A DNA stretch of 20,802 bases, from positions 1 through 20,802 of IMG/VR virus record IMGVR_UViG_3300037160_000083. One strand, given 5' to 3'. Below the pieces are notes generated by a model. It saw only the letters and a program-made list of their open reading frames with translations, had not been told where the DNA came from and ran no database searches. This DNA is from a virus. Below are positions 3,376 to 16,578 of the stretch, in pieces. Each line of letters opens with the position of its first letter. Position 1 is the stretch's first letter. The translations under genes were made by a program, and so were the position numbers.

Positions 3376-3744
3376 TCAGTCGAACAGCTTAACCCATTCT
3401 TCCAATTCCGCCCGCGTCCTCGCCAGCACGCCGTTCGCTTCCGACGCCACGTCCAGCAAGTGTTGTTTCCGCTTGTCGTGCTCCTCCAAGTCCCTGTTCG
3501 CGCGATTCGCCATACGTTGGGCTCGGATGCAGGACACGAGCAAAGTAGCGGACTCGGGGCCGAGCGAGATAAGGTCGGAGATGTCGCGGTTCTGCGCGGA
3601 CGAAAAGCCGGGAGAACCGGGAGAACCGGGAGGGACTGGACTGGTGGACGTGCGGACTGGTGCCGGTGCGGAAGTCTGAGACGGACCTGTCGTAGCAGGC
3701 GGTTGAATCGGCGGTTGAATCGGCGGTTGAATCGGCGGTGGCAT
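3376..3744 (-). CDS. Proline-rich/collagen-like small protein with C-terminal coiled coil
   Basis: A 122-residue protein. Residues 1-17 are near-perfect repeats of PPIQ encoded by a 12-bp DNA repeat. After a Ser/Thr/Pro linker comes a short Gly-x-y run (PPGSPGSPGF) encoded by a 9-bp repeat. The C-terminal 60 residues are highly charged and helical (NRANRDLEEHDKRKQHLL, RTRAELEEWVKLF), probably a coiled coil. It lies directly upstream of portal in the head operon, so a structural, tethering or scaffolding role is plausible but not shown. The spacer to the preceding gene is 32 nt, with a purine-rich AAAGGAAA upstream of the ATG. Confidence 0.6.
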   Translation of the reverse strand: MPPPIQPPIQPPIQPPATTGPSQTSAPAPVRTSTSPVPPGSPGSPGFSSAQNRDISDLISLGPESATLLVSCIRAQRMANRANRDLEEHDKRKQHLLDVASEANGVLARTRAELEEWVKLFD

Positions 3745-4432: not shown

Positions 4433-5344
4433 TCACGCGATCACGCACAACGCCGTCCCGCATTGCGCGCAGAACTTGTTTGTCGCTTTGTTGACCTTCC
4501 CGCACGTCACGCAGGTAGGTTTTACGTCTACCGTAACTGGCATTACGACCGGTTGTCCGTTTACGTCTCCGCGCAGATGGAGGACGATGACGGTGCTGGT
4601 CGGTTCGAGCGGGAAGCCCGACACGTTGACGAATTGCTGACGGCTCTCGCCGCCGGGGACGGTAATGCCAACGTCCGTGTGCGTGACGGGAGTAACGGAG
4701 GAGCCGATGTCGGCACTACAGAAATTGGTGGTGGGGTGGATAACGGAACCGGGAGTCGGACCACATGCACCTTTTGAAATTGGATGCTGAGGACGGCTAG
4801 GACGACCGCGCATCGAACCGGCAGAAGCCGTCATTGGACTGCGCTGACCACCTGGCGTTCCCCACCGTGGTGCCATACGTTGAGGACGTACAGGCCAATA
4901 ATACGGATACTCGTAACCGTAGTCGTATGGTTGTACGTACGGCACGTACGGCACAGACGGGATTGAGATCGGCAAACATTCGTACCGTTGCACCACTTCC
5001 TTCCACGCCTCCACTCTCACCAACCCGTCCTCCGCCCCAACTCCCCGATGTTCCTCCACTTCCTTCGTCCGTTCGACGAACTTAAACCGATTCCCAGCCT
5101 GGAGGTTCCCGTTACGGACGAACCGTTCCAGTTCGACGCTGGAGTTTGGTCCAACGATCAGTTTGGTCCCGTCCGTCGCGTCCTTCCCGTTGATAGAGAC
5201 GGAGAACTGGATACGGACGGAGTTGAGGTTTTTGACCAGCAAACTGAATTCGCTGCCGAATGGAAGGGTTACGGTGTCGGAGTTTTCGCGAAGGACTTGC
5301 CCGTTCACCTTCACGACGGCCACTACGTTAGCGGTGTACATCAC
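4433..5344 (-). CDS. Phage virion-like protein with C-terminal double-CxxC zinc ribbon
   Basis: A 303-residue protein. Residues ~1-100 form a beta-rich domain with VTLPFGSEFSLLVKNLNS, a VGPNSSVELERFVRNGNLQ segment and an AGNRFKFVERT strand, a pattern I associate with phage structural or decoration proteins. A Tyr/Pro-rich linker follows (PYVPYVQPYDYGYEYPYYW). The C-terminus has TCVTCGKVNKATNKFCAQCG, a four-cysteine zinc ribbon. GTG at 5344 or ATG at 5341 is preceded by AAAGGAG at normal SD spacing. It lies between TerL and portal. Structural role inferred; exact function unknown. Confidence 0.6.
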   Translation of the reverse strand: MMYTANVVAVVKVNGQVLRENSDTVTLPFGSEFSLLVKNLNSVRIQFSVSINGKDATDGTKLIVGPNSSVELERFVRNGNLQAGNRFKFVERTKEVEEHRGVGAEDGLVRVEAWKEVVQRYECLPISIPSVPYVPYVQPYDYGYEYPYYWPVRPQRMAPRWGTPGGQRSPMTASAGSMRGRPSRPQHPISKGACGPTPGSVIHPTTNFCSADIGSSVTPVTHTDVGITVPGGESRQQFVNVSGFPLEPTSTVIVLHLRGDVNGQPVVMPVTVDVKPTCVTCGKVNKATNKFCAQCGTALCVIA

Positions 5345-5730: not shown

Positions 5731-7791
5731 TTACCCCGAAACGATAATCGCGCCTCTTCCTTCGTAAACGCTCGGCGAGAACAACATAGCTCGGTACAAG
5801 CCATCGACGCCAGCCGAAACCCCGTCGATTCGATTACTCGTCCTAGTCCTCTCCGGCTTGGTGAACATCAGCAAATCGTTCTCTTCCTTCCCCGACACGC
5901 ACGAGGCGTTCCACTTCAACACCGGATGCCCGCCGTGGTACAACTTCCCTCCCGCGATCAACTCCATGACCTTCTTACTTGGAGCCGACAGACTAACCAT
6001 CCCTTGTTGGATGTCGATACACGCAAACCCGTCCCGAATCATCTTAGTAGACAACTCACGTGAGTTGTACCTATCGAAACAAATCTCGCGCAGATCAAAC
6101 ACCCTACTCCCCCACTCCAACCGTTCCCTAATAACGCTGTGGTTGATAACGTTCCCCGGACACGTCTCCATGTACCCGTCGTCGATCCACTTACGGTACG
6201 GCATACCGTCCTTACGTTCCTTTTGTAGTACGGTCGTTTCCGGTATCCAGAAGAAACTCAACCAGTCGTACGCCTCGTCCTCCCCTTCGCGCGGAAAGAC
6301 AAACACAACGGCGGACAAGTCGGTGGTCATACTCAAATCCACCCCCGCCCAGCACGGGCGGTCGATGAAGTGCTTGAGAACGGAGTCGGGGAGGGGACGG
6401 ACAAGGTCGCCGGCGGGGATGGCGGGGAGGAGACCGCGCGCTACCCAATCGCAATTGTCCTGGCACTTATCCCACATCTCCATGTCGATCAGCCGGTCTT
6501 CCTTTTGGTCCCATAGGTTAAGGAAGTAGCGTTTGAACGACGTAAGGTCGCCCTCGCTAGACAACTCGACGTACTTCTTCCTAACTTTCTCTATGTCTAA
6601 AAACCCTCCGTTCTGTTTCAACGACGGGTTGGCTTTGATCCAGGTACGCGGACTATCCACCGGGTCCTTCTTATCCGCCGCGTAAATCCTTCCGTAGAAC
6701 CCAGGGTCCTCGATTATCCCTTTCGCGATATTGACGGTCTTCTCGTGCAACCTCCACGCCAGCGGAGATTCGTTCTGCACCCCGGCGGTCGTGATCGCGA
6801 TAGTAAGCGTACGTTGACGAGTTATTCCGCCGTTGGCCAGCACGTCCCAATTCTCGATCTGTTTGCGCGTACGCCAACGGTGGAGTTCGTCAGCTACGGT
6901 AAGGGCCGGGTTTACGCCGTCGCCGAAATCTCCGTCTGCTGGCACGGCGGCGTAGAAACTTTCCGGATCGGAACGCTTTAGGATACGGGAAGTGCCACGG
7001 AGAAGGCGGAGGGAGGAAGTTAGGATAGGGGATTGTTCGACCATCTTACAGGCTGCACGGTACACGTTGAGAGCTTGACGGGAGACGGCGGCGGCACCGT
7101 ACACCTGACAACCCGGCTTGGAATTCATGATAAGTTCTAGTAAGACGATGCCACTAGCAAATTCCGTTTTCCCGGAATTTCCACTTGGTACTAAGTCATT
7201 GCCGACCAAGAATATGTGTGTAGGAGAGTCTACCGTAATACAACGAACGGGTACGGATTCTGTTCGACAAACTTCCGTCAACGTATGTCCACGAGGTCCA
7301 CGATAAGTGTAATAGCCAGATTCGTACAACTGTTTTGTAGTTACACGGTCTAAACCATCGTGGATAGGCCATTCATGACTGGCGTCCGCAACTATGAAGC
7401 TAGTGGCGAGACCGTGACCGTCGCGAAAACTTAATCGGTAACACTCCCGATTGTAGAAAACCGGACTGGTATCTATTACACGGCACAGGTTACCGGACTC
7501 GTCGAGAACCCGATCCCCTACCTCCACGTCGCCCATCGTCTTCCACCCCAACTCGGTTGGAATTGGTGTAGTTATGGCCAACGGTTTCTTCGGAAGTTCG
7601 AGGTAGACCATCTCCACCACTCTCTCCCCATCCTCGTTCAGATCCCCGTAGATACGGTTGATCGCCTCCTCCTCCCACGGACAGAGCAGGAACGGTTTGC
7701 CGTACCATTCGTCGGCGGAGTGTCTAAGGACGGACTCGAAGAAGTTCAGCGCGGCGTCGGCGTGCGGGCGGGAGAATGGCACAACGACCAT
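5731..7791 (-). CDS. terL: Terminase large subunit (HK97 type) interrupted by an intein
   Basis: The 686-residue precursor would become about 550 residues after splicing, normal for this family. The N-terminal ATPase holds an adenine-binding region (FLLCPWEEEAINRIYG), a Walker A that exists only after splicing (PKK joined to SGKTE), Walker B with D301-E302 (ALTVADELHRW) and motif III TLTIAITTAG. The RNase H-like nuclease begins at WAGVDLS with Asp485; further acidic positions lie in EICFDRYNS and GVSAGVDGLYRAM. The enzyme cuts concatemers and pumps DNA through the portal. The intein spans residues 70-205. The gene starts 51 nt after the phosphoesterase stop without an obvious SD. It is separated from terS by about 9.8 kb. 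Confidence 0.95.
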   Translation of the reverse strand: MVVVPFSRPHADAALNFFESVLRHSADEWYGKPFLLCPWEEEAINRIYGDLNEDGERVVEMVYLELPKKPLAITTPIPTELGWKTMGDVEVGDRVLDESGNLCRVIDTSPVFYNRECYRLSFRDGHGLATSFIVADASHEWPIHDGLDRVTTKQLYESGYYTYRGPRGHTLTEVCRTESVPVRCITVDSPTHIFLVGNDLVPSGNSGKTEFASGIVLLELIMNSKPGCQVYGAAAVSRQALNVYRAACKMVEQSPILTSSLRLLRGTSRILKRSDPESFYAAVPADGDFGDGVNPALTVADELHRWRTRKQIENWDVLANGGITRQRTLTIAITTAGVQNESPLAWRLHEKTVNIAKGIIEDPGFYGRIYAADKKDPVDSPRTWIKANPSLKQNGGFLDIEKVRKKYVELSSEGDLTSFKRYFLNLWDQKEDRLIDMEMWDKCQDNCDWVARGLLPAIPAGDLVRPLPDSVLKHFIDRPCWAGVDLSMTTDLSAVVFVFPREGEDEAYDWLSFFWIPETTVLQKERKDGMPYRKWIDDGYMETCPGNVINHSVIRERLEWGSRVFDLREICFDRYNSRELSTKMIRDGFACIDIQQGMVSLSAPSKKVMELIAGGKLYHGGHPVLKWNASCVSGKEENDLLMFTKPERTRTSNRIDGVSAGVDGLYRAMLFSPSVYEGRGAIIVSG
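7177..7584 (-). other. Class 3-like mini-intein in terL Walker A (136 codons)
   Basis: The in-frame insertion encodes 136 residues starting PLAITTPIP and ending LVPSGN, followed by Ser206. Removing it rebuilds PKKSGKTE, the terminase P-loop. Block A has GWKTMGDVEVGDRVLDESG. Block B has ADASHEW, so His139 is followed two residues later by Trp141. Block F has VRCITVDSPTH with Cys184. The first residue is Pro, not Cys or Ser. These are marks of class 3 inteins, which use the block F Cys, the block B Trp and the +1 Ser. The block G Thr is Ser203 and the penultimate His is Gly204, both unusual. There is no room for a homing endonuclease domain. Confidence 0.88.
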
Positions 7792-8491: not shown

Positions 8492-8569
8492 TGGTGGCCC
8501 CGGAGCGAATCGAACGCTCGAACCTGTCGCTTAGAAGGCGACCGCTCTGTCCATCTGAGCTACGAGGCC
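8492..8569 (-). tRNA. tRNA-Arg(UCU)
   Basis: Anticodon TCT (complement at 8533-8535) reads AGA. The acceptor GGCCTCG pairs with CGGGGCC with one G-U, discriminator A, CCA encoded. D-loop GG and T-loop TTCGATT are canonical. Last tRNA of the array in transcription order. Confidence 0.95.
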
Positions 8570-8578
8570 GTGAGGTGG

Positions 8579-8652
8579 GGTGCGGTGGCGGAATCGAACC
8601 GCCGGCCTGATTCTTAGGAGGAATCCGCTCTGTCCTTCTGAGCTAACCGCAC
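8579..8652 (-). tRNA. tRNA-Arg(CCU)
   Basis: Anticodon CCT (complement at 8616-8618) reads AGG. Acceptor GTGCGGT/ACCGCAC is perfect and the T-loop is TTCGATT. The 3' end continues CCCACC, so a clean CCA is not encoded, unlike nearly all other tRNAs here. The preceding HNH stop lies 3 nt upstream. Confidence 0.93.
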
Positions 8653-8654
8653 GT

Positions 8655-9161
8655 TTACGCGAACAAGTACCTGTTCCAGACTTCCTGATCTCCTTGCATC
8701 AACCTCAACTTCGCGTGTATCCCAATTGATCTAGGCGGACGCGCGAGCGCCATCCCGGCTTCGGCTGGCGTCCTGTCGCCTTTACGATTATTATCGGAAA
8801 AACAACAGGCAACCAAATTGTCCCACGTCGATTGACCGCCGCGAGAGCGCGGCACCACATGATCCAAGGTGAGATCTTTGGACGGTAGCGTATGTCCACA
8901 GTACTGGCACGTGCTCTGATCGCGCAGAATAATTCCCTTACGCGAGACCGAACGGTTGAACCGCGGCACGCGCCGATACCGTACCAGCCGAATCACGGAC
9001 GGGAGACGGATCTCCAATTGCGAAGTGTGGATAACGTGGTCGGACGGAACTTCCACGACGGCTGCACACTTACAGATGAGCTTCATCGCACGACGTGCGG
9101 AACAGATGTGGATCGGTTCAAAACTGGCGTTGAGAACTAACACTAGATGATTTAGGCTCAT
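8655..9161 (-). CDS. HNH endonuclease (bacterial/phage 5-methylcytosine-type HNH family)
   Basis: A 168-residue protein. The N-terminal half (VLNASFEPIHICSARRAMKL, then RLPSVIRLVRYRRVP) and the C-terminal HNH core (CQYCGH, LTLDHVVPRSRGG, NRKGDRTPAEAGM) match a widespread stand-alone HNH family. The second metal-binding cysteine pair is altered: where ACxxCN is expected the sequence has ACCFSDN. It starts 9 nt after the RtcB stop and ends 3 nt before tRNA-Arg(CCU), so it is embedded in the tRNA transcript. A role as a mobile nuclease or in DNA processing is inferred. Confidence 0.9.
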   Translation of the reverse strand: MSLNHLVLVLNASFEPIHICSARRAMKLICKCAAVVEVPSDHVIHTSQLEIRLPSVIRLVRYRRVPRFNRSVSRKGIILRDQSTCQYCGHTLPSKDLTLDHVVPRSRGGQSTWDNLVACCFSDNNRKGDRTPAEAGMALARPPRSIGIHAKLRLMQGDQEVWNRYLFA

Positions 9162-9170
9162 GGTCTATCC

Positions 9171-10346
9171 CTAATCCCGGTACGGATCGACTTCCCGCTC
9201 GCCCGCCATCGCCACGCCAATCGGTTTCAACGCGTGCAAAACGCGAATACTTCCCGCGTGTTCCGCCAGCACGTCCGTCAACCGTTTGTAACAGTCCGGC
9301 GACTCGTCCACTCCAGCCCCGCGCAACTCCACGTCCGCACGGCTCACCCACCCGTCCATCATCGCCTGCGTTACCTTACCGACGCGCTTTACCTCACCCG
9401 TGCGCCGATCCACCTTTCCCTTCGCCTCCATCCTGCCCATAACTCGTCCAGCCCCGTGGATGGTCGAATAGAGGGATAGCCCCGCGTCTTCGTTCTCGAC
9501 GCCCTCGATTATGACCGAGATCTCTCCCATACTACCCCCGACGAATCCGCGCTGGCCGGGGAAAGCTGGCGTAGCTCCCTTACGAACCACCCACAACATT
9601 TCGCCTTGGTGCTCTTCACGCCACGCGAAATTATGGTTGTTGTGTACTTCCTCCAGCACGTTAGCGCCAAGGATCTTAGCCACCCGTTCGCTAACCCAGT
9701 CACGGCCTGCGTAGGCGTAACGTCCCGCCAACGTCATACAAGCGAGATAGTCGGCACCCATACTGTCGGTGGCCGAGATCACGCACGGCTCCACGTCCAT
9801 CCCGTCCTTCGCGCCGGCGGCGTTTAGGAAGTACGTCGCGGTTTTGTGTCCGAGTCCGCGCGATCCGAAATGTACGCCGATCCACACGCGCCCGAGTTCG
9901 TCCTCGAAGATGTCAACGTAGTGGTTGCCGGACCCGACCGTACCAAGTTGTTGGTGCGCCATTTCCTTAAGCGGCGCGACTGCGGTTAGTTTCCACGCAT
10001 CGTCGTCGAACAGTTCGTGGTCGATCCGCTCGTTGTTTTTTCGACCGACGCCGAAACTGATAATGCGAAACACGTCGTCCATAATCGTGGAGATGTTACG
10101 GCGCACGTCCGTTACGTCCGCGTCGGTTAGGATAGCGCGGTTTCCACAACTTATGTCGAACCCGACTCCCGACGGACTGATCTTGTCTTTGTACGCCACC
10201 ACCCCGCCTATAGGCACTCCATACCCAGCGTGGTGGTCGGCCATAAGCGCCACCCGGTCGGCGGTTTTAGCGCACGTTTTGATCTGGCGTAACGCCCACT
10301 CGTCCACGGGCGTACCCCATACTGGAATTCCATCGATTAGTTGCAT
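9171..10346 (-). CDS. rtcB: RtcB-type RNA ligase (3'-phosphate/5'-hydroxyl RNA repair)
   Basis: A 391-residue ligase that joins RNA ends left by tRNA-cleaving nucleases (2',3'-cyclic phosphate or 3'-phosphate to 5'-OH) using GTP and Mn2+. Metal and GTP motifs are intact: ADHHAGYGVPIG, SGVGFDISCGNRAI (Asp64, Cys67), VGSGNH (His142), VHFGSRGLGH (His159), HNNHNFAWRE, GATPAFPGQRG and the guanylylated His297 in HGAGR. The length fits the short RtcB subgroup. No archease or RtcA lies nearby. It sits inside the tRNA array between tRNA-Lys(UUU) and an HNH gene and shares their transcript, so repair of phage or host tRNAs cut by defence nucleases is the natural inference. Confidence 0.95.
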   Translation of the reverse strand: MQLIDGIPVWGTPVDEWALRQIKTCAKTADRVALMADHHAGYGVPIGGVVAYKDKISPSGVGFDISCGNRAILTDADVTDVRRNISTIMDDVFRIISFGVGRKNNERIDHELFDDDAWKLTAVAPLKEMAHQQLGTVGSGNHYVDIFEDELGRVWIGVHFGSRGLGHKTATYFLNAAGAKDGMDVEPCVISATDSMGADYLACMTLAGRYAYAGRDWVSERVAKILGANVLEEVHNNHNFAWREEHQGEMLWVVRKGATPAFPGQRGFVGGSMGEISVIIEGVENEDAGLSLYSTIHGAGRVMGRMEAKGKVDRRTGEVKRVGKVTQAMMDGWVSRADVELRGAGVDESPDCYKRLTDVLAEHAGSIRVLHALKPIGVAMAGEREVDPYRD

Positions 10347-10383
10347 TTGCGATGTACCGTCCTTGATCCTAAGTTGTAGAATG

Positions 10384-10460
10384 TGGTCCGCCGAGCCGGT
10401 CCCGCCCCGGCTGCGTCCTGTTTAAAAGACAGGTCCACGTTCTCTCAGTGGTATCGGCGG
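10384..10460 (-). tRNA. tRNA-Lys(UUU) with altered elbow
   Basis: Acceptor CCGCCGA/TCGGCGG, discriminator A and CCA are encoded. Anticodon stem CCTGT/ACAGG with loop CTTTTAA. The T-loop is GGCGGGA instead of TTCRANY and the D-loop TGAGAGAAC has no GG but offers A18-G19 opposite G55-C56. First RNA upstream of rtcB. Confidence 0.85.
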
Positions 10461-10461
10461 A

Positions 10462-10539
10462 TGGTGCCAGATCGGAGGATCGAACTCCGCTTTAGCCGGT
10501 ATGTAAAGCCGGTCCAGGCGACCAGCCTGGGTATCTGGC
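10462..10539 (-). tRNA. tRNA-Val(UAC)
   Basis: Anticodon TAC (complement at 10503-10505) reads GUA. Acceptor GCCAGAT/ATCTGGC, CCA encoded, D-loop GG and T-loop TTCGATC. Oddities: A8 in place of T8, and a C-A mismatch closing the anticodon stem (31-39). Confidence 0.9.
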
Positions 10540-10546
10540 GAAACTT

Positions 10547-10621
10547 TGGTAGGCCCTTTGGGAATCTAACCCAATCCAGCGACTTTATAAGAATCGCACG
10601 CATACGGAGCGTCTAGGGCCT
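10547..10621 (-). tRNA. tRNA-Ile(UAU)
   Basis: Anticodon TAT (complement at 10587-10589) reads AUA directly, without needing lysidine modification of a CAU anticodon. Acceptor AGGCCCT/AGGGCCT, CCA encoded. D-loop TCCGTAT has G18-U19 and T-loop TTAGATT has U55-A56, a changed but complementary 19-56 pair. Confidence 0.9.
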
Positions 10622-10622
10622 A

Positions 10623-10698
10623 TGGCTCCCCGACCAGGATTCTAACCTGGAACCTCACGGTTAACAGCCGTGCTCTCTAACAGTTGAGATATCGGGGA
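10623..10698 (-). tRNA. tRNA-Asn(GUU)
   Basis: Anticodon GTT (complement at 10663-10665). Acceptor TCCCCGA/TCGGGGA, discriminator G, CCA encoded. D-loop AACTGTTA has U19 in the canonical position and T-loop TTAGAAT has A56, so 19-56 is U-A rather than G-C. Confidence 0.95.
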
Positions 10699-10707
10699 AT
10701 ATGCACT

Positions 10708-11464
10708 TTAAATGCCTACTGCAATCTTGAGATCCTGTTCGACGGCCTTACGACCACGAGCACCCTTTACGGTACCGGCATTCCAACCGTCTAACAACCC
10801 GTATTCCCTAGCTTCTTTCAAACTAGGGACCAACATGAGCCACGCTTCAAATGGCATGTCTCGACGGAACATATTGCAACGCATACAGGCCGCTACGACA
10901 TTCGTTCTCACGTGACCAATACTGTTATCAATACGATCAAGTGTCATCTTTCCGACTACGTCACCGCAGTACTCGCAGCCACCGGAAATCCTGTTTTTGA
11001 TAAATTGCCAATCGAGATCATTCTCTAGTCCACGTAGCTTATCGGACCTGCGGGAGTCGCAGAGTATAAACATGAACCGCTTGTCCAGGAGACTGTCTCC
11101 GAAGACGATCTACGGCTTTCCTTCTATCCAGTTCGCGCTGTTTAGCCAATGCCGTAGTCGGATATTTTTTCCTGTGCTCAACGTCGCATGTATAACAAAG
11201 GAACCTCCTATAAAAATTATTCCCAACCTTTCGGACGGCAAACCTAACCTCTGGCTCTTTTTGTCCGCAACCTTTGCAACAATGCTTGATCGGTGGTCGA
11301 TGTTCAGAAACGTACGCGATATGCTTCTCCCGATTGGCCTTATACCACAATCGGTTATAGTCAACCATACACGACTGACACCAAGTCTGTTTTGCTTGGT
11401 CTATTTTGCGTGTATAGAACTCGCTATCTTCTTTTATCTGCTTACACCGTGTACAAAACTTCAT
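10708..11464 (-). pseudogene. HNH homing endonuclease split by a +1 frameshift
   Basis: Two overlapping frames make one recognisable protein. The upstream frame (11039-11464) has two zinc-knuckle modules, FCTRCKQIK...WCQSC and HCCKGCGQK...LCYTC, then a basic linker. The downstream frame (10708-11073) has the HNH core: CEYCGD, KMTLDRIDNSIGH, NVVAACMRCNMFRRDMP and an EAWLMLVP tail typical of phage homing nucleases. Homologues that I recall carry these in one chain; here reading must move +1 near 11085-11095, where the two frames can be joined as RRQS to LLDKRF. No slippery heptamer is visible, so this is more likely a mutation than programmed shifting. The downstream ATG at 11073 has no SD. Confidence 0.75.
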
Positions 11465-11494
11465 ACAATCAGTGTACCACTTTTAAATGAAAAC

Positions 11495-11572
11495 TGGTGC
11501 GCCCAAAAGGATTTGAACCTTTGACCACACGCTTAAGAGACGTATGCTCTGACCAGACTGAGCTATGGACGC
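11495..11572 (-). tRNA. tRNA-Lys(CUU)
   Basis: Anticodon CTT (complement at 11535-11537). Acceptor GCGTCCA/TGGGCGC, CCA encoded, D-loop GG and T-loop TTCAAAT. Fully canonical elbow, in contrast to tRNA-Lys(UUU). Confidence 0.95.
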
Positions 11573-11580
11573 GAAACTTT

Positions 11581-11654
11581 TGGTAGCGCTAGCGGATCTC
11601 GAAACCGCATCGAATCCTTGAAGGGGATTCATCCTACCTTTAGACGATAGCGCC
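11581..11654 (-). tRNA. tRNA-Glu(UUC) with C33
   Basis: Anticodon TTC (complement at 11620-11622) in loop CCTTCAA, so position 33 is C instead of the near-universal U. Acceptor GGCGCTA/TAGCGCT with a G1-U72 pair, CCA encoded, T-loop TTCGAGA with a T-T mismatch at 53-61. Confidence 0.85.
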
Positions 11655-11655
11655 G

Positions 11656-11731
11656 TGGTCTCGTAGGTGAGAATTGAACTCACTGTCACTTCCTTGAGAG
11701 GGAAGGCGCTCGGCCGGTCGCGCTCTACGAG
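11656..11731 (-). tRNA. tRNA-Glu(CUC)
   Basis: Anticodon CTC (complement at 11696-11698). Acceptor CTCGTAG/CTACGAG, CCA encoded, T-loop TTCAATT, D-loop with GG. Only one nucleotide separates it from tRNA-Glu(UUC). Confidence 0.9.
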
Positions 11732-11741
11732 TCTTACAAAA

Positions 11742-11818
11742 TGGCGCTCCGTGGGAGGCACGATCTCCCCGTCTCTTGGTTGACAACCAAGCGCCTCGAC
11801 CATCTCGGCCTACGGAGC
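11742..11818 (-). tRNA. tRNA-Asp(GUC)
   Basis: Anticodon GTC (complement at 11782-11784). Acceptor GCTCCGT/ACGGAGC, discriminator G, CCA encoded, D-loop GG. T-loop ATCGTGC keeps U55-C56 but has A54. Confidence 0.93.
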
Positions 11819-11822
11819 AAAA

Positions 11823-11888
11823 GTGGGTGGGCGTCAATCAATCACACCGCCTGTTACATGAACCGATCTTACGATTCCGGTCACCCAC
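11823..11888 (-). ncRNA. CCA-less tRNA-like element of unknown identity
   Basis: It has the position and size of a tRNA in the array, with a perfect 7-bp closing stem GTGGGTG/CACCCAC. The interior lacks a normal anticodon arm. It can form GAATCG-TAAGAT-CGGTTC and GGTGT/ACGCC hairpins. The 3' end reads TTT, not CCA. It is either a badly decayed tRNA or an untranslated structural RNA. Confidence 0.35.
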
Positions 11889-11895
11889 AAATTTA

Positions 11896-12005
11896 TGGAG
11901 CGGCGAGGACGAATCGAACATCCGCGAGCCGGTTCGGTGTCGCGCCACCTTGCCGACCATGACACGGGCTGGAATCCCGTCGCTCTGCCACTGAGCTATC
12001 GCCGC
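11896..12005 (-). tRNA. tRNA-Gly(UCC) with a 40-nt structured variable arm
   Basis: Acceptor GCGGCGA/TCGCCGC, CCA encoded, D-loop GG, anticodon TCC (complement at 11971-11973), T-loop TTCGATT. Between the anticodon and T stems lie 40 nt (11924-11963) instead of 4-5. They fold into a 6-bp stem (GGTCGG/CCGGCT with wobble), a symmetric CAA/GAA internal loop, a 4-bp stem GGTG/CACC and a GCGCGA loop. Glycine tRNAs are normally class I, so this arm is very unusual. Confidence 0.85.
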
Positions 12006-12017
12006 ACAAACGAAACA

Positions 12018-12093
12018 TGGTCCGCTCATTCGGATTTGAACCGAAAGCTGCTCCTTCGGACGGAGCCGACCTGTCCAGTTGGTCGATGAGCGG
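12018..12093 (-). tRNA. tRNA-Arg(CCG)
   Basis: Anticodon CCG (complement at 12057-12059). Acceptor CCGCTCA/TGAGCGG, CCA encoded, D-loop GG, T-loop TTCAAAT, short variable loop. Confidence 0.93.
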
Positions 12094-12100
12094 TTAGAAT

Positions 12101-12189
12101 TGGGACGCCCGACAGGACTCGAACCTGCATAGAGCATTACGCTCCCACGTTCGTAGCGTGGTACCTGATCCAAATTAGGTTACGGGCGC
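12101..12189 (-). tRNA. tRNA-Arg(ACG) with a long variable arm
   Basis: Anticodon ACG (complement at 12152-12154), the type that is deaminated to ICG. Acceptor GCGCCCG/CGGGCGT with G1-U72, CCA encoded, T-loop TTCGAGT. The variable region is 16 nt and forms a GAGC-GTAAT-GCTC hairpin, a class II feature not expected for arginine. Confidence 0.9.
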
Positions 12190-12198
12190 GTGAAAACT

Positions 12199-12274
12199 TG
12201 GCAGCGGCGGCAGGATTTCAACCTGCGCGTGTTCGGGTCAGAGCCGAATGCCTTAAGCGCTTGGCTACGCCGCT
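12199..12274 (-). tRNA. tRNA-Gln(CUG)
   Basis: Anticodon CTG (complement at 12239-12241). Acceptor AGCGGCG/CGCCGCT, discriminator G, CCA encoded. T-loop TTGAAAT has G56; the D-loop AAGCGCTTAA offers G18-C19, a reversed but complementary 19-56 pair. Confidence 0.92.
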
Positions 12275-12298
12275 GTATAACTTGTACGTACTTCCGAT

Positions 12299-12374
12299 TG
12301 GCGGGGGCGCTCGGGCTCGAACCGAGACTCGGTGGAACCAAAATCCACTGCATTGCCTATTATGCTACGCCCCT
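12299..12374 (-). tRNA. tRNA-Gln(UUG)
   Basis: Anticodon TTG (complement at 12339-12341). Acceptor AGGGGCG/CGCCCCC with an A1-C72 mismatch, in keeping with the weak first pair favoured by glutaminyl-tRNA synthetase. Discriminator G, CCA encoded, canonical elbow. Confidence 0.92.
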
Positions 12375-12381
12375 TCAAACT

Positions 12382-12457
12382 TGGGTTGAGGTACGGGAAT
12401 CGAACCCGTCTTTGCGGTTCCACGGACCGCTGCCTAAACCGCTCGGCCAACCCCAAC
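12382..12457 (-). tRNA. tRNA-His(GUG) with C33
   Basis: Anticodon GTG (complement at 12421-12423) in loop CCGTGGA, so base 33 is C. The histidine identity pair is present: G at -1 (complement at 12457) opposite discriminator C73. CCA encoded; D-loop GG and T-loop TTCGATT are canonical. Confidence 0.93.
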
Positions 12458-12470
12458 ATGAAACTATAAC

Positions 12471-12700
12471 GCTAGCGTGCCGGTTAGGTCCCGGCTATGG
12501 CCGCATCGCGGGGTTTACATCCACCTGCCGATGAACAGGTACCCGCGAAATTAAAGCCGCGCGACAGTTTGAGCGCGGTTACTCTTGGCCCATGGCCGCC
12601 GATCTTCCTTCCACCTCTTCACGGGAGGTAATCTGACAATCGGCACCGTCCCAGGATGGGGCTCGGTTTCCACTGTACGATCCGTCGTACCGACGCTAGC
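12471..12700 (-). ncRNA. 230-nt structured RNA with tRNA-like ends, unknown class
   Basis: The termini pair perfectly over 8 bp (GCTAGCGT with ACGCTAGC), spaced like a tRNA acceptor. Two nt inside is a GTACGA-CGGA-TCGTAC hairpin in the D-arm position. The hairpin GCCGG-GACCTAA-CCGGC stacks directly on the 3' strand, like a 5-bp/7-nt T-arm. Between them are four more hairpins, including GCCGATT/GATCGGC enclosing ACCTC/GAGGT, CCGCGC/GCGCGG, and CGCGGG/CCCGCG enclosing ACCTG/CAGGT. There is no CCA. The topology recalls tmRNA, but G3-U70 and the usual 5' motif are missing. It fills the gap between tRNA-His and tRNA-Phe. Confidence 0.45.
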
Positions 12701-12704
12701 GACT

Positions 12705-12779
12705 TGGTGCCTGCTGCGGCGCTCGCATCCGCGTTACCGGCTTTTCAGACCGGCGCTACGCTATCTCAGCTAAGCAGGC
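12705..12779 (-). tRNA. tRNA-Phe(GAA) with altered elbow
   Basis: Anticodon GAA (complement at 12744-12746). Acceptor GCCTGCT/AGCAGGC, CCA encoded. T-loop TGCGAGC has G55-C56; the D-loop AGATAGCG offers A18-G19. The T-stem has an A-G mismatch at 53-61. Confidence 0.85.
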
Positions 12780-12787
12780 GAACTGAT

Positions 12788-12859
12788 GAGGTGGTAGTAG
12801 ACCTTTCGGTCCTCGTGCCGCAACGTTTATCGGCACTTCGCGGTTGCCCGCCACACCTC
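12788..12859 (-). ncRNA. 72-nt cloverleaf-like RNA with GNRA tetraloops, no CCA
   Basis: The whole 72 nt folds as a four-way junction. Closing stem GAGGTG/CACCTC; D-like arm GCGG-GCAA-CCGC; anticodon-like arm GTGCCG with a 10-nt loop and CGGCAC; T-like arm GACC-GAAA-GGTC. Every stem is perfectly paired, and two arms end in GNRA tetraloops instead of D and T loops. It lies between tRNA-Phe and the plus-strand HNH gene. It is not a translatable tRNA. A decoy, a processing signal or a remodelled tRNA are all possible. Confidence 0.45.
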
Positions 12860-12898
12860 GTAAAAATGGTGGACCTTGCTACGGTTTCATTGCAACCG

Positions 12899-12907
12899 TG
12901 CTATCCT
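12899..12907 (+). promoter_or_regulatory. Extended -10 (TGCTATCCT) for plus-strand HNH gene
   Basis: Identical to the nonamer before portal. The hexamer ends 7 nt before the ATG at 12915, predicting a leaderless transcript independent of, and opposed to, the tRNA array. Confidence 0.5.
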
Positions 12908-12914
12908 CATACTT

Positions 12915-13529
12915 ATGAACTCACGTTTCAATCCCTCTCAGATAACACGTACTTGCCCGAATTGTGGCAAACAATTCCAACCTCAAATGCGCGACGTTAA
13001 CCGAGGCTTTGGCAGATACTGTTCGGTAAGTTGCGGCTCGCAACATCGCCAACGTCAAAGGTACGGGCCGCGTATCGACACGACATGCGGATTTTGCTTA
13101 AAACCGTTAGTTAAATTGGCTAGCGAACTCGCAAAAAGTCATAGTGGCCTATTATTCTGCACCCGAAAGTGCAAGGATTCCGCCCAACGTATCGAAGCCG
13201 GGATCACGGCTATTCAGCCAAAACACTACGGAACCGCCGCAAATGTAAGCACCGAGATCTATAGAGCGATAGCGTTCAAACATCACGCGGCACGTTGCAA
13301 TCGTTGTAACTATGATCGTGTACCAGAGATACTGCATGTGCATCATTGTGACCGCGACCGCTCAAACAGGAAGCCAGAAAACTTAGAAATTATTTGCCCA
13401 ACTTGTCATGCCGAAGAACATTACTACGCTAAGGACGGCATGTTTGGCAAAAACAAGTACAAAGTGGTGGATCTCGTCGGCTCTGCCCCGACCGCCTCCT
13501 GCGTGCAAAACAGGCGCTCTCCTGAATGA
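12915..13529 (+). CDS. HNH endonuclease with zinc-finger N-terminus, plus strand
   Basis: A 204-residue protein, the only HNH gene opposed to the array. The N-terminus has two zinc-binding modules (TCPNCGKQF...YCSVSC and TCGFCLKPL...FCTRKC). The C-terminal HNH core reads CNRCNYDRVPEILHVHHCDR, RKPENLEIICPTCHAEEH. The ATG at 12915 is preferred over an upstream in-frame start because of the -10 at 12902-12907. The last ~22 codons are antisense to tRNA-Ala, so the gene has either inserted up to or run into the tRNA. A selfish element using a tRNA-array site is inferred. Confidence 0.88.
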   Translation: MNSRFNPSQITRTCPNCGKQFQPQMRDVNRGFGRYCSVSCGSQHRQRQRYGPRIDTTCGFCLKPLVKLASELAKSHSGLLFCTRKCKDSAQRIEAGITAIQPKHYGTAANVSTEIYRAIAFKHHAARCNRCNYDRVPEILHVHHCDRDRSNRKPENLEIICPTCHAEEHYYAKDGMFGKNKYKVVDLVGSAPTASCVQNRRSPE

Positions 13530-13540
13530 GCTAGAGACCC
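13465..13540 (-). tRNA. tRNA-Ala(UGC) with altered elbow
   Basis: Anticodon TGC (complement at 13505-13507). Acceptor GGGTCTC/GAGATCC contains the alanine identity pair G3-U70. CCA encoded. T-loop GGCAGAG has G54, G55 and C56; the D-loop ATTCAGGA has A18-G19 in canonical positions. The 3' half is overlapped antisense by the HNH gene. Confidence 0.88.
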
Positions 13541-13550
13541 GTAAACTGAT

Positions 13551-13643
13551 GAACGGCATCGTCGTCTGTCTCTGCCTGGATGTCTCCAAAACACGTTAGC
13601 GCGCGGGCATCCCCGTGGGTTTCGCATACATCGGATGCCGTTC
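13551..13643 (-). ncRNA. 93-nt element closed by a 10-bp stem, no CCA
   Basis: The ends pair perfectly over 10 bp, GAACGGCATC with GATGCCGTTC. Inside are GATGT/ACATC and a CGGG-GATG-CCCG hairpin. A second GATGCC could compete for the 5' strand, giving an alternative fold. A GTGT-TTTGGAG-ACAT arm looks like a proline anticodon loop, but no complete cloverleaf fits. It fills the spacer between tRNA-Ala and tRNA-Met. Its class is unknown. Confidence 0.35.
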
Positions 13644-13648
13644 AACTT

Positions 13649-13726
13649 TGGTAGCAGGACTAGGAATCTAACCTAGCTAGTTCTGCGTTATGAGCGCAGC
13701 GTGTGCAACAGCTCAACTTTCCTGCT
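13649..13726 (-). tRNA. tRNA-Met(CAU), probably elongator
   Basis: Anticodon CAT (complement at 13690-13692). Acceptor AGCAGGA/TCCTGCT, CCA encoded. It has no initiator-type GGG/CCC anticodon stem, and A1 pairs with U72. T-loop TTAGATT (A56) goes with D-loop U19 (AGCTGTTG). The D-stem is poorly paired. Confidence 0.88.
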
Positions 13727-13741
13727 ATAACTCTACAAACT

Positions 13742-13817
13742 TGGTACGCGCGGAAGGAGTTAAACCTTCTTGAACTATCTTATCAGGATAGCGCCTAAGT
13801 CGTTCAGCCACGCGCGT
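13742..13817 (-). tRNA. tRNA-Ile(GAU)
   Basis: Anticodon GAT (complement at 13782-13784). Acceptor ACGCGCG/CGCGCGT, CCA encoded. T-loop TTTAACT has U56 and the D-loop GAACGACTTA has G18-A19: the 19-56 pair is A-U. Confidence 0.92.
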
Positions 13818-13824
13818 ATGAAAC

Positions 13825-13900
13825 TGGAGCCGACGGCCGGGAACGATCCGGCGACCTTACCCTTACCAAGGGTACGCTCTACCACCTGAGCTACATCGGC
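13825..13900 (-). tRNA. tRNA-Thr(GGU)
   Basis: Anticodon GGT (complement at 13865-13867). Acceptor GCCGATG/CGTCGGC, discriminator U, CCA encoded, D-loop GG. T-loop ATCGTTC has A54. Very similar 5' half to tRNA-Thr(CGU), suggesting duplication. Confidence 0.93.
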
Positions 13901-13915
13901 GAAACCTTACGAAAC

Positions 13916-13991
13916 TGGAGCCGACGGAGACAATCGAAGTCTCGACCTCCGATTTACGAAAACGGCGCTCTACCACCTGAGCTACGTCGGC
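13916..13991 (-). tRNA. tRNA-Thr(CGU)
   Basis: Anticodon CGT (complement at 13956-13958). Acceptor GCCGACG/CGTCGGC, discriminator U, CCA encoded, canonical elbow with T-loop TTCGATT. One T-T mismatch in the anticodon stem. Confidence 0.93.
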
Positions 13992-13992
13992 A

Positions 13993-14068
13993 TGGAGCCG
14001 GGAGGGACGCTCGAAGTCCCACAGTCCACTTTACAGGAGTGGCGCTCTGCATCTTAAGCTATCCCGGC
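13993..14068 (-). tRNA. tRNA-Thr(UGU) with C33
   Basis: Anticodon TGT (complement at 14033-14035) in loop CCTGTAA, so base 33 is C. Acceptor GCCGGGA/TCCCGGC, discriminator U, CCA encoded. T-loop TTCGAGC is normal, but the D-loop AAGATGCA lacks GG; it keeps G19. Confidence 0.9.
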
Positions 14069-14072
14069 AAAA

Positions 14073-14160
14073 CTTTACGGCGGGCGCTCTACCATTGAGC
14101 TAACGGCCTCGGAAGCAAGGGAGGTCGTACTGGACTCGAACCGAACATCTCCCGCCTGCT
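14073..14160 (-). tRNA. Candidate circularly permuted (or rearranged) tRNA: 3' half precedes 5' half
   Basis: In transcription order a 3' half comes first (14160-14122): anticodon-stem strand GCGGG, variable AGATG, T-loop TTCGAGT and acceptor strand ACGACCT. After 12 nt comes a 5' half (14109-14073): acceptor strand AGGCCGT, TA, a perfect GCTC-AATGGTA-GAGC D-arm, and anticodon-stem strand CCCGC. Joined in tRNA order, the anticodon stem pairs 5/5 and the acceptor 6/7 (one C-A). The T-stem is damaged, no CCA follows, and the anticodon cannot be assigned. It is either a permuted tRNA gene or the scar of a tandem-duplication deletion. Confidence 0.55.
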
Positions 14161-14236
14161 TGGAGCGACCACCCGGCTACGATCCGGGAACCTCGACTTC
14201 GGCAAAGTCGCGCTCTACCCGTTGAGCTATGGCCGC
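14161..14236 (-). tRNA. tRNA-Gly(GCC)
   Basis: Anticodon GCC (complement at 14201-14203). Acceptor GCGGCCA/TGGTCGC, discriminator U, CCA encoded, D-loop GG. T-loop ATCGTAG has A54. The permuted tRNA halves follow its CCA immediately. Confidence 0.92.
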
Positions 14237-14243
14237 GAAACTT

Positions 14244-14444
14244 TGGTCGGTCCTGACAGTTCGCCGTTTGAGTTACCAGGATTTCACAGATGTTCCGTTA
14301 GCGCGAATCGTCATCCGCGCCGCTTTGTCTTCTGGTATCTACCTGTCGTCCACCGGCGATAAGGCCGGAGCACTTTTTCCATACCCGTCAGCTCGTGAGG
14401 TACGCCTCGGATCGCCCGCAAGGGTGGCTCAGTGCTTAGGACCG
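14244..14444 (-). ncRNA. 201-nt RNA with tRNA acceptor and encoded CCA, tmRNA-like topology
   Basis: The ends form a perfect 7-bp acceptor CGGTCCT/AGGACCG followed by discriminator A and CCA, exactly as in neighbouring tRNAs, but the interior is about 183 nt. It contains GAGG-CGTA-CCTC, CCGGC-CTTATC-GCCGG and GCGCG/CGCGC hairpins, a possible TGAG..ACC/GGT..CTCA long-range helix near the ends, and a GCACT/AGTGC pairing. There is no T-arm with UUC, no G3-U70 and no 5' GGUUCGAC signature. It could be a divergent phage tmRNA, a tRNA holding an intron, or a new CCA-ended RNA. Confidence 0.5.
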
Positions 14445-14457
14445 AAACTTTCAAAAA

Positions 14458-14533
14458 TGGAGCGTCCTGCGGGTAACCCTCCCGCTTAAAACTGGTTTGG
14501 AAGACCAGTGCCTCAGTTTTCGGCCAAGGACGC
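14458..14533 (-). tRNA. tRNA-Gly(UCC), second copy, altered elbow
   Basis: Anticodon TCC (complement at 14499-14501) in loop CTTCCAA. Acceptor GCGTCCT/AGGACGC, discriminator U, CCA encoded. T-loop AGGGTTA has G55-G56; the D-loop AAAACTGA can supply A18-C19. Unrelated in sequence to the other tRNA-Gly(UCC). Confidence 0.85.
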
Positions 14534-14615
14534 ACGTTTGTAAAACGACTTCCGATTCAAAGATCGACGGCCCGGTGGTCGTAACCACGCAAAGCCAATG
14601 TACCTATCGTTTAGA

Positions 14616-14972
14616 TCAATTCCAATTCTGGTACCACCCCGCCAGCAACTTCCCGCCGTCGGGCATCTCCGGATCGTACGGACGCGCTCTCAACTCTTCC
14701 CGGTACATCGCGCGTAACCGTCTCTGCCACAACCGTTTCATATCCATCGGCGGTGGGTAGAAGTAGTGGTTGCCGAACGGGTAACGTTCCTTCCGCCTGT
14801 ACAACCCCCGACGAGTCTCGTACTCGCGCGGGCTGAAGCATGAGCGCCGGTCGCCGTTACGGTTACCGTACGTGCCAGGTTTGTGGCGTCCGCAGTACCC
14901 GTCTTCCCCTATCGGTTCCCACACACGGGTTTCCGTACACAGGTCCCAATAGTGCGTGTTGTTTCTCGACAT
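14616..14972 (-). CDS. Small basic protein of unknown function within the tRNA array
   Basis: A 118-residue Arg- and aromatic-rich protein that I do not recognise. The N-terminal 50 residues contain three cysteines and a histidine (LCTETRVW, DGYCGRH, RRSCFSPREY), which could hold a metal. The C-terminal half is basic with several Tyr/Trp (KRLWQRRLRAMYREELRARP, GWYQNWN). The start at 14972 has GGAGG 13 nt upstream, rather far. It sits between tRNA-Pro and tRNA-Gly(UCC) on the same strand and is probably cotranscribed. RNA binding is a guess from charge only. The 80 nt after its stop (14535-14615) hold one GTGGT-TACG-ACCAC hairpin and nothing else recognisable. Confidence 0.55.
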   Translation of the reverse strand: MSRNNTHYWDLCTETRVWEPIGEDGYCGRHKPGTYGNRNGDRRSCFSPREYETRRGLYRRKERYPFGNHYFYPPPMDMKRLWQRRLRAMYREELRARPYDPEMPDGGKLLAGWYQNWN

Positions 14973-15023
14973 GTTAGCCTGTTATCCTCCTACAAAGCTG
15001 ACATGGCGCACCTCCTTAGAATT

Positions 15024-15101
15024 TGGTCTGGGCGGCTGGATTTGAACCAGCGAAAACCTGCTCCCAAGGCAGGTGGGCAAACCAGACTACCCTACGCCCA
15101 G
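15024..15101 (-). tRNA. tRNA-Pro(UGG)
   Basis: Anticodon TGG (complement at 15064-15066). Acceptor CTGGGCG/CGCCCAG, discriminator A, CCA encoded, D-loop GG, T-loop TTCAAAT. Canonical throughout. Confidence 0.95.
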
Positions 15102-15109
15102 ATGTACTA

Positions 15110-15155
15110 CCACAAAAACCAAACGGCCCGGAATTCCTTTCGGAAACCGGGCCGT
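15110..15155 (-). terminator. Rho-independent terminator-like hairpin inside the tRNA array
   Basis: Perfect 9-bp arms (15123-15131 and 15147-15155, core GGCCCGG/CCGGGCC) with an inner TTCC-TTTC-GGAA helix, followed on the minus strand by TTTGGTTTTT. It lies upstream of tRNA-Pro, so it would attenuate transcription from the 17 kb promoter before the remaining tRNAs unless they have their own promoter or the phage antiterminates. Confidence 0.65.
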
Positions 15156-15348
15156 CTTGAAATCGAACTTTATTCCAAGTCGGCTCAGGTCCCCATTGGA
15201 CGCGCGTCCGTATTGACAGTACGGGTCGGGCGCGTTGTGGGTTCCGCTATGGCGAAATGGAATTTCTGTCTCATCTTTTCAGGCCACTACGTTTCAACAA
15301 GTTCAGTATGCGCTAATTCCGTTTCGGAAAGCAAGCATTATTTTGAGA
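15156..15348. other. Gene-free stretch upstream of plus-strand small gene
   Basis: About 190 nt without a convincing gene. It has a GGACGCGCGTCC palindrome near 15198 and an isolated TTGACA at 15214-15219 with no matching -10 at normal distance. It separates the terminator from the plus-strand zinc protein gene. Confidence 0.35.
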
Positions 15349-15354
15349 TATTAT
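15349..15354 (+). promoter_or_regulatory. -10 hexamer TATTAT for leaderless plus-strand gene
   Basis: The hexamer ends 6 nt before the ATG at 15361. The intervening TGGAGC is too close to the ATG to be a good SD. Confidence 0.4.
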
Positions 15355-15360
15355 TGGAGC

Positions 15361-15648
15361 ATGCCCACTCGCGGTATCGGCTACGCCTTTCGCCAGCGTC
15401 CAGCCCAAGCACGGTTTTGTCCATGGTGCGGGGTGGAGTCGTTGGAACGGGATCAGTACAAACGGGATCGGCACAGTCACGGAGTCGGGAACGGCGGGTG
15501 CCATCCCGAGTTCGCATGTAGGACTTGCGGGTCGGGGTTCGAGCTACGGAACTCGTACAGAGCTGATCAGGCCGTGGCGTTGTTGCGCGCCGAGTCGCGC
15601 CTGCGCCCGGACGATTTTGAGAAGGTGGCGGAAGCGGAGTGGAGTTGA
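15361..15648 (+). CDS. Small zinc-ribbon-like protein, plus strand, unknown function
   Basis: A 95-residue protein. FCPWCG at about residues 19-24 and GCHPEFACRTCG around 48-59 supply two CxxC knuckles; a FELRNSYRADQA segment and an Arg/Glu-rich C-terminus follow. It probably binds zinc; I do not recognise a family with confidence. The start at 15361 fits the leaderless -10. The last ~7 codons are antisense to tRNA-Ser(CGA). Like the HNH gene at 12915, it is opposed to the array and butts against a tRNA 3' end. Confidence 0.55.
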   Translation: MPTRGIGYAFRQRPAQARFCPWCGVESLERDQYKRDRHSHGVGNGGCHPEFACRTCGSGFELRNSYRADQAVALLRAESRLRPDDFEKVAEAEWS

Positions 15649-15716
15649 ACCCTCAAGGCCGTTTAAGGACCAACTGTTTTCGAGACAGTTCCCGTCGCCA
15701 ATCGGTGTGCGCTTCC
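15626..15716 (-). tRNA. tRNA-Ser(CGA)
   Basis: Anticodon CGA (complement at 15680-15682). Acceptor GGAAGCG/CGCTTCC, discriminator G, CCA encoded, class II variable arm. T-loop TTCAACT; the T-stem carries one bulged A. The 3' end is overlapped antisense by the plus-strand gene. Confidence 0.9.
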
Positions 15717-15726
15717 ATAAAACTGG

Positions 15727-15800
15727 TGGAGGGCCGCGAGCGAATCGAACGCTCTGTCAATCGCTTTGCAGGCGATGTGGTCACCGTTTCCCTGCGACCC
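15727..15800 (-). tRNA. tRNA-Cys(GCA)
   Basis: Anticodon GCA (complement at 15767-15769). Acceptor GGGTCGC/GCGGCCC, discriminator U (a cysteine identity base), CCA encoded, D-loop GG, T-loop TTCGATT. Confidence 0.95.
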
Positions 15801-15808
15801 TTAAAAAG

Positions 15809-15850
15809 TGGCACACCCGCGAGGATTTGAACCCCAACGGGAGAACCGTT
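15809..15850 (-). pseudogene. Truncated tRNA: T-arm and 3' acceptor with CCA only
   Basis: T-loop TTCAAAT in a T-stem TGGGG/CCTCG, then acceptor strand CGGGTGT, discriminator G and CCA. No 5' acceptor strand (ACACCCG) or D-arm exists upstream, where tRNA-Trp ends directly. An AACGG/CCGTT hairpin precedes it. A remnant of a deleted tRNA. Confidence 0.7.
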
Positions 15851-16262
15851 AAACTTGGCACGGGGGCCGAGGATCAAACTCGGCTGACTGGTTTTGGAGA
15901 CCAGTCGCTTCTTCAGAAACACCCCCGCGTATCCTGATCCGACTCCTAACCCTGTGACAGCACGCACATACCAGATCGCATTTGGCGATTTCCCTATCAA
16001 TCCTTTCCTTTGACCAGCCCGCCCTAACTACCATAGCGATGTTAATGTCCTTCTGGCTCCCTGGCAAATGGTCAAAGTCCATCGCACAATAATGGAACTT
16101 CCGGCCACAGTCTGCGCAAGGCCCATTCTTGGCTTCACGGATAATATCTTCTGCCCTACGTTTTTGTAATGCTCTCGCCTTGATATATTGCTCTTTATGT
16201 GAATAATAGTGTCTCAGGCGCGCAGCTCGGTTTCTTTCATCCAACGGATTTTTGTATGGCAC
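15849..16262 (-). CDS. HNH endonuclease whose frame runs through tRNA-Trp
   Basis: A 137-codon frame. The family part is residues ~1-108: MPYKNPLDERNRAARLRHYY, a Lys/Arg helix, GPCADCGRKF, MDFDHLPGSQK, EIAKCDLVCACCHRVR, a small HNH group common in phages. The remaining ~25 residues are simply the tRNA-Trp sequence read as protein, with the stop just past the tRNA CCA. Insertion immediately 5' of tRNA-Trp is likely. It starts with GTG; TGGTATAAT ends 7 nt upstream, and TGGAG in the gap is too close for a strong SD. Confidence 0.85.
   Translation of the reverse strand: MPYKNPLDERNRAARLRHYYSHKEQYIKARALQKRRAEDIIREAKNGPCADCGRKFHYCAMDFDHLPGSQKDINIAMVVRAGWSKERIDREIAKCDLVCACCHRVRSRIRIRGGVSEEATGLQNQSAEFDPRPPCQV
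15856..15928 (-). tRNA. tRNA-Trp(CCA) with reduced D-arm
   Basis: Anticodon CCA (complement at 15895-15897). Acceptor GCGGGGG/CCCCCGT with G1-U72, discriminator G, CCA encoded. The D-arm is TTTC-TGAA-GAAG with only a 4-nt loop. T-loop TTTGATC has U56, matching G18-A19 in the D-loop. It lies wholly inside the 3' end of the HNH frame. Confidence 0.88.
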
Positions 16263-16269
16263 GGCTCCA

Positions 16270-16278
16270 ATTATACCA
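16270..16278 (-). promoter_or_regulatory. Consensus extended -10 (TGGTATAAT) before HNH gene
   Basis: The hexamer TATAAT ends 7 nt before the GTG start at 16262. It could also feed transcription into tRNA-Trp and the following tRNAs. Confidence 0.55.
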
Positions 16279-16327
16279 AATGCGGGTTGGAGTCGGCTTA
16301 CCTCACCATCGGTTACGGGTGCGTGGT

Positions 16328-16402
16328 TGGTGCCCGCTACAGGTCTTGCACCTGCACTGAACCGCGTTTAGGGCGGTTGCCTCTGCGTTGGGCTAAGCGG
16401 GC
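16328..16402 (-). tRNA. tRNA-Leu(UAA), class I shape, C33, altered elbow
   Basis: Anticodon TAA (complement at 16368-16370) in loop CCTAAAC (C33). Acceptor GCCCGCT/AGCGGGC, CCA encoded. The variable loop is only ~5 nt, although bacterial leucine tRNAs have long arms. T-loop TGCAAGA has G55; the D-loop can supply A18-G19. Confidence 0.85.
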
Positions 16403-16577: not shown

Positions 16578-16578
16578 G

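Follow-up and report, generated by a model that had tools for sequence, protein, structure and literature searches.

The window that we analysed, the 20,802 nucleotides of IMG/VR record IMGVR_UViG_3300037160_000083, contains a large terminase (TerL) gene that is interrupted in its P-loop. The gene occupies positions 5731-7791 on the minus strand and encodes a precursor of 686 residues with a computed mass of 77.3 kDa that comprises the TerL ATPase and nuclease together with an intein. Within these 686 residues Pfam matches the domains TerL_nuclease (1.4e-33) and, from residue 206 onwards, TerL_ATPase (1.2e-12), and PHROG 9 is matched over residues 206-674 (5.3e-115). Alignment with intein-less TerLs divides the precursor into an N-extein of 69 residues ending in LELPKK (7585-7791, minus strand), an insert of 136 residues running from Pro1 to Asn136 (7177-7584, minus strand; precursor residues 70-205; 15.1 kDa computed) and a C-extein of 481 residues plus stop that starts SGKTE and carries TerL from the Walker A lysine onwards (5731-7176, minus strand). 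The reading frame is intact on both sides of the interruption, and the spliced product is predicted to be a TerL of 550 residues (62.1 kDa computed). The original prediction of a 136-codon insert at this place was exact in its coordinates, open reading frame and residue numbers.

We used a whole-protein scan of IMG/VR to collect 33 TerL loci, 32 of which cover the insertion site. All 32, which are 53-66% identical to the spliced TerL, lack the insert and read in line across the junction as [PV]KK/[SAT]GK[TS]E (here and below, the slash marks the junction), with VKK only in L014. Removal of the insert had been expected to rebuild the Walker A sequence PKKSGKTE, and these homologues, reading through the site without it, bear this out. 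A terminase carrying the segment uninterrupted, which had been named in advance as the observation that would speak against an intein, was looked for and found in none of the 32. The segment is therefore an in-frame insert with exact boundaries between PKK and SGKTE, which are unambiguous at the protein level and where no host residue has been lost, and its excision restores the Walker A motif of TerL. An exact-peptide search using the intein alone found no relative.

Searched with phmmer against all PDB chains, the insert best matches two class 3 DnaB-1 inteins, one from M. smegmatis (6bs8, 1.7e-25) and one from M. chimaera (6rix, 2e-25). The alignments span intein residues 2-136, and an AlphaFold2 model built from 34 aligned sequences (pLDDT 93, pTM 0.86) shows a HINT fold with blocks A, B, F and G, in line with the forecast that class 3 inteins would align over these blocks; a single-sequence model reached only pLDDT 36 and was set aside. 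The top structural matches of the model are again M. smegmatis DnaB-1 (Z 22.6; 1.3 A over 125 residues) and M. chimaera DnaB-1 (Z 21.8), followed by engineered gp41-1 (Z 18.3) and native gp41-1, the nearest native class 1 fold (Z 17.9), with other inteins at 16.5 or below. The insert itself is unmatched by NCBIfam and Pfam at their cut-offs, which reflects model sensitivity only. Searches with Pfam, NCBIfam and PHROG also gave no endonuclease match inside the insert, which at 136 residues in all is a mini-intein, and here too the original prediction was right.

Class 3 inteins have been called from the absence of Cys at position 1 together with a Cys at F:4 (PMC7891396), and the terL intein has both features. 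Its first residue is Pro, and so offers no Ser, Thr or Cys nucleophile; Pro is found at this position in 37/134 class 3 inteins compared. The class 3 initiating Cys (F:4, intein Cys115, precursor Cys184; 7240-7242, minus strand), the block B His (B:10, His70/His139; 7375-7377, minus strand) and the class 3 Trp that forms a His70-x-Trp72 motif with it (B:12, Trp72/Trp141; 7369-7371, minus strand) are invariant in both intein alignments. So is the terminal Asn136 (G:7; 7177-7179, minus strand), which is predicted to cyclize. The first C-extein residue, Ser+1 (7174-7176, minus strand), is the predicted second branch point and is S, A or T in the intein-less homologues. When the terL intein is aligned with 33 viral mini-inteins of class 3, the residues that never vary are D24, F53, H70, W72, P112, C115, V118, D119 and N136. 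The assignment to class 3 had been proposed from Pro1, H139, W141, Cys184 and Ser206 at +1 in precursor numbering; these residues, the phmmer match and the structural comparison agree with it. Thus, by sequence, predicted fold and catalytic residues, the terL insert is shown to be a class 3 intein.

The intein differs from its class at two nearly invariant C-terminal positions (7180-7185, minus strand), with Ser134 in place of Thr at G:5, the third letter of the WCT signature, and Gly135 in place of the penultimate His at G:6. Thr at G:5 is a signature with known exceptions and not a strict requirement. It is present in 132/134 class 3 inteins compared, the exceptions being the terL intein and CcrRogue (true end VVVHN), and the terL intein alone among the 134 has Ser there. 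Departures from Thr at G:5 make up 4.6% of 1701 published class 3 inteins (PMC7891396), little may change when this Thr is mutated (PMC5222942), and in gp41-1 the T123S variant retained activity, Ser serving at the equivalent position in cleavage (PMC12245125). The penultimate Gly has a counterpart in the Bethlehem RDF intein, which splices efficiently with Gly at this position and in which a Gly-to-His change slowed splicing, although that intein is class 1, has an endonuclease and lies in a different host protein (PMC5050341). Gly also recurs, as do Cys, Ala and Gln, at the penultimate position of class 3 inteins at the same site. The Ser-Gly combination had been flagged as unusual, which holds for the Ser but not for the Gly. 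Compact at 136 residues, with W-C-S as its triplet and Gly-Asn at its end, this class 3 intein may serve as a probe for the residues that the class 3 route truly needs.

Comparison with characterized inteins places these departures in context. M. smegmatis DnaB-1 (PDB 6bs8, 6own), at about 43% identity, has the same fold, His B:10, Trp B:12, Cys F:4, His F:13 and terminal Asn, and like the terL intein lacks an endonuclease (139 versus 136 residues); the two DnaB-1 inteins, from M. smegmatis and M. chimaera, are both mini-inteins of 139-145 residues. The M. smegmatis intein splices by the class 3 route and requires Cys F:4 (PMC5222942). It interrupts the DnaB helicase and ends in THN, whereas the terL intein interrupts TerL, ends in SGN and has five extra residues (HGLAT) after residue 56. 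The split class 3 intein AceL NrdHF (PMC7891396, PDB 6zgq) is active despite departures from WCT and from the block F and block G His residues; it differs from the terL intein in being split, in its MCT triplet, in missing both His residues and in its less similar structure (Z 14.3).

The K/SGKT junction lies three residues upstream of GK/T, the 'classic' P-loop intein insertion place (PMC5050341). Mycobacteriophage TerL1 inteins also lie in the TerL ATPase domain, several of them in the P-loop and class 3 inteins among them (Kelley et al. 2016, PMC5050341), and representative members have been shown to splice quickly (PMC5050341). Those of NelitzaMV, Minerva and Makemake differ from the terL intein in having about 330-350 residues, a THN end and insertion at GK/T, GKG/S or other sites. 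The majority of the TerL P-loop inteins that we examined are at GK/T or GK/S, and K/SGK was not seen in the isolate-phage hits inspected, which were part of several hundred records (NelitzaMV, Minerva, Makemake, Nebkiss, Zipp, YungMoney, CN1A, SOVA965, ELT3, RaK2 and others). K/SGK is absent from the Walker A sites that PMC5050341 describes for the TerLs of mycobacteriophages.

We searched IMG/VR for same-site inteins using a class 3 C-terminal pattern in which [ST]GK-like codons were fixed after the junction and the penultimate residue was left free. Many class 3 inteins use the K/SGK junction, with ends TGN (L128-L130, L133-L136 and L131), TCN (L143, L145, L150, L153, L156, L157, L162 and L173), TQN (L139), TAN (L172) and THN (L144, L146-L148, L155, L158 and L174). 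The host TerLs of L144 (ETPKG/...THN/SGKTPLASG) and L153 (ETPKG/...TCN/SGKSPLAAG) are similar to the present TerL around the junction. The TerL class 3 inteins that we compared at [KGRQ]/[SC]GK (L128-L131, L133-L136, L139, L143-L148, L153, L155-L158, L173 and L174) share the Walker A junction with the terL intein, and many have Gly, Cys, Ala or Gln in place of the penultimate His and keep the block F His. Unlike the terL intein all of them have Thr at G:5, and most are 296-400 residues long, with a few mini-inteins of 144-173 residues; the tree places the terL intein with none of them. The terL insert adds a new and slightly aberrant class 3 mini-intein to a Walker A junction of TerL that inteins occupy repeatedly in metagenomic phages.

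Some loci recovered in these searches are of a different kind. A separate C-terminal DNA pattern returned nine loci, L131 among them; one of the nine, L132, we rejected as a fortuitous match. Inteins at DxK/TGK were also rejected as same-site inteins, their sites resembling Cas4/RecB-type nucleases and not a P-loop. A supported group of class 3 inteins (L140, L142, L149, L151, L152, L159-L161, L163-L166, L168-L170 and L175) is mostly at D[YWL]K/TGK, a site that resembles the Cas4/RecB-type catalytic motif, and keeps the penultimate His throughout. One record, IMGVR_UViG_3300044265_000008 (L122 / L134), has a 998-residue TerL ORF with two class 3 inteins, one of 296 residues at PQK/SGKG with a TGN end and a mini-intein of 132 residues at ..QDE/TGIW.

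Replacement of the penultimate His is concentrated at the K/SGK site. Among inteins with both ends recovered and with the terL intein left out, it is seen in 13/22 at this site versus 5/110 at other sites (p 9e-9) and, after crude clustering, in 7/13 versus 0/48 (p 4e-6), an association that offers only three usable independent pairs on supported branches and to which shared ancestry may contribute. One of the five found elsewhere, L167 (AQK/...TCN/TGKGP), appears to lie at this Walker A site as well, its +1 residue being Thr.

According to PMC5050341, the block F His can substitute for the penultimate His. The terL intein, which is without the latter, keeps a His at F:13 (His123, precursor His192; 7216-7218, minus strand; PMC7891396 numbering), a residue absent from the original prediction and a candidate stand-in for the missing one. 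With the terL intein left out, F:13 His is present at the K/SGK site in 17/17 inteins without a G:6 His versus 2/9 with it (Fisher p 5e-5), and over all 136 other sequences in 19/22 versus 66/114 (p 0.015), a correlation drawn from few independent lineages, only three usable independent pairs, a poorly resolved tree and two sets fetched by different rules. The pattern at the K/SGK site suggests that His123 may assist Asn cyclization in the terL intein, although this role need not hold because AceL NrdHF splices without either His (PMC7891396). The two K/SGK-site inteins that have both His residues, L141 and L148, fall in supported groups (98) that also include L139, the Gln case, and the Cys lineage (L143/L145/L157/L173), as might be expected if the penultimate His was lost from inteins that already had the F:13 His. 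More tentatively, and as a possibility that we do not favour, TerL class 3 inteins at this site may have repeatedly shed the penultimate His and come to use the block F His, a site-tuned change in Asn cyclization that could pace terminase activation and of which the SGN form would be the most divergent. With the K/SGK-site set, substitution of the block F His for the penultimate His becomes clearly testable.

We think it highly probable that the insert is an active class 3 mini-intein, acquired and since deprived of its endonuclease, in the Walker A motif of a TerL that functions only after splicing. Splicing of the precursor is predicted from its sequence and modelled fold, and the order of steps by analogy with the established class 3 route (PMC5222942, PMC7664689). 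Cys115 would attack the Lys69-Pro70 bond (precursor numbering) directly, assisted by His70 and Ser134 in place of the His and Thr of the Cys-His-Thr triad, and the N-extein acyl group would then pass to Ser+1. Asn136 would cyclize, presumably with help from His123 instead of a penultimate His, and an O-N acyl shift would rebuild LPKKSGKTE, such that TerL would bind ATP and package DNA only once spliced. Because the Walker A motif is split before its Gly-Lys, ATPase activity prior to splicing is very unlikely, and it is sound to infer that packaging depends on splicing.

As G:5 and G:6 are both changed, splicing could be reduced or conditional, or the intein could be in early decay. Ser134 and Gly135 might slow Asn cyclization so that splicing trails translation or sets the time at which TerL becomes active; the penultimate residue does alter the splicing rate in other inteins (PMC5050341), and the class 3 catalytic Cys can be oxidized, with N-cleavage then blocked (PMC7664689). 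However, no change at G:5 is milder than Ser, the intein has His123, and non-His penultimate residues are common among same-site relatives in intact TerL genes, and we regard such an impairment as rather unlikely. It is very improbable that the insert is decaying in a nonworking terminase or that the phage uses another TerL. Although two nearly invariant residues are changed and the record, of only 20.8 kb, leaves space for a second terL elsewhere, the insert has kept every nucleophile along with both W and C of its class 3 signature, the ATPase and nuclease domains of the extein give good scores, portal and terS genes are in the same record and the model folds with pLDDT 93. A non-splicing domain retained in the mature terminase is scarcely credible, as it has the altered G:5 and G:6 residues in its favour and nothing further, and runs against a near-complete class 3 residue set, the retention of all Walker A junction residues and the empty sites in all homologues.

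The composition of the active intein that we favour is in keeping with acquisition from elsewhere. It has 49.5% GC and 46% GC3, compared with 55.8% and 70% for the exteins, and the lowest GC3 of any 136-codon extein stretch is 58%, above that of the intein. In the tree it falls in an unresolved group of 39, and its closest sequence, at 56% identity, is the GK-site intein L074; grouping the terL intein and the TGN lineage as one clade is compatible with the data (p-AU 0.66), and the terL intein may or may not share an origin with the other same-site inteins. We infer that the terL intein was horizontally acquired and that its homing endonuclease was lost in the past. At the K/SGK site a recent endonuclease deletion is seen directly: L143 (165 residues) and L145 (350 residues) are the same Walker A class 3 intein without and with the endonuclease region, and the 503 C-terminal residues that their host TerLs have in common are 98% identical. 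Alternatively, the terL intein might move in trans through a free-standing HNH endonuclease of the same genome. The record does have several HNH or endonuclease VII-like genes among the tRNAs (8655-9161, which is nearest to the intein, 10708-11464, 12876-13529, 15849-16262 and 20143-20664), but none is beside or inside the insert, and we found no evidence tying any HNH gene in the record to the intein. Moreover, homologues of the 20143-20664 gene lie near terS in the intein-less L029 and L023, which points to a packaging role, and the majority of same-site relatives, at 296-400 residues, are as long as inteins that contain an endonuclease domain. We therefore consider homing in trans improbable.

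In the intein-less relatives a terS homologue lies just upstream of terL. In the present record the terS-terL gap is about 9.8 kb and holds at least 28 tRNA genes, rtcB, a metallophosphoesterase gene and several HNH-type genes. The tRNA array was delimited with ARAGORN (at least 28 genes; 8492-16872, minus strand), and Rfam adds tRNA sites near 11899-12005, 13468-13540 and 13652-13726; the RtcB-type RNA ligase gene (9171-10346) lies within the array. No tRNA genes were found in the available DNA of 14 tested relative loci of the same TerL type. Between portal and terL, a 303-residue protein (4433-5344) has a C-terminal zinc-ribbon-like CxxC...CxxC and no PHROG match. The phage record also encodes a Ferritin/Dps-like protein (416-916; Pfam Ferritin 4.3e-6) and has two short tandem arrays, one of a 9-base unit, GTACACGAT, repeated 6.4 times (55-113) and one of an in-frame 12-base unit (3698-3739) that gives a repeated QPPI in the 3376-3744 ORF.
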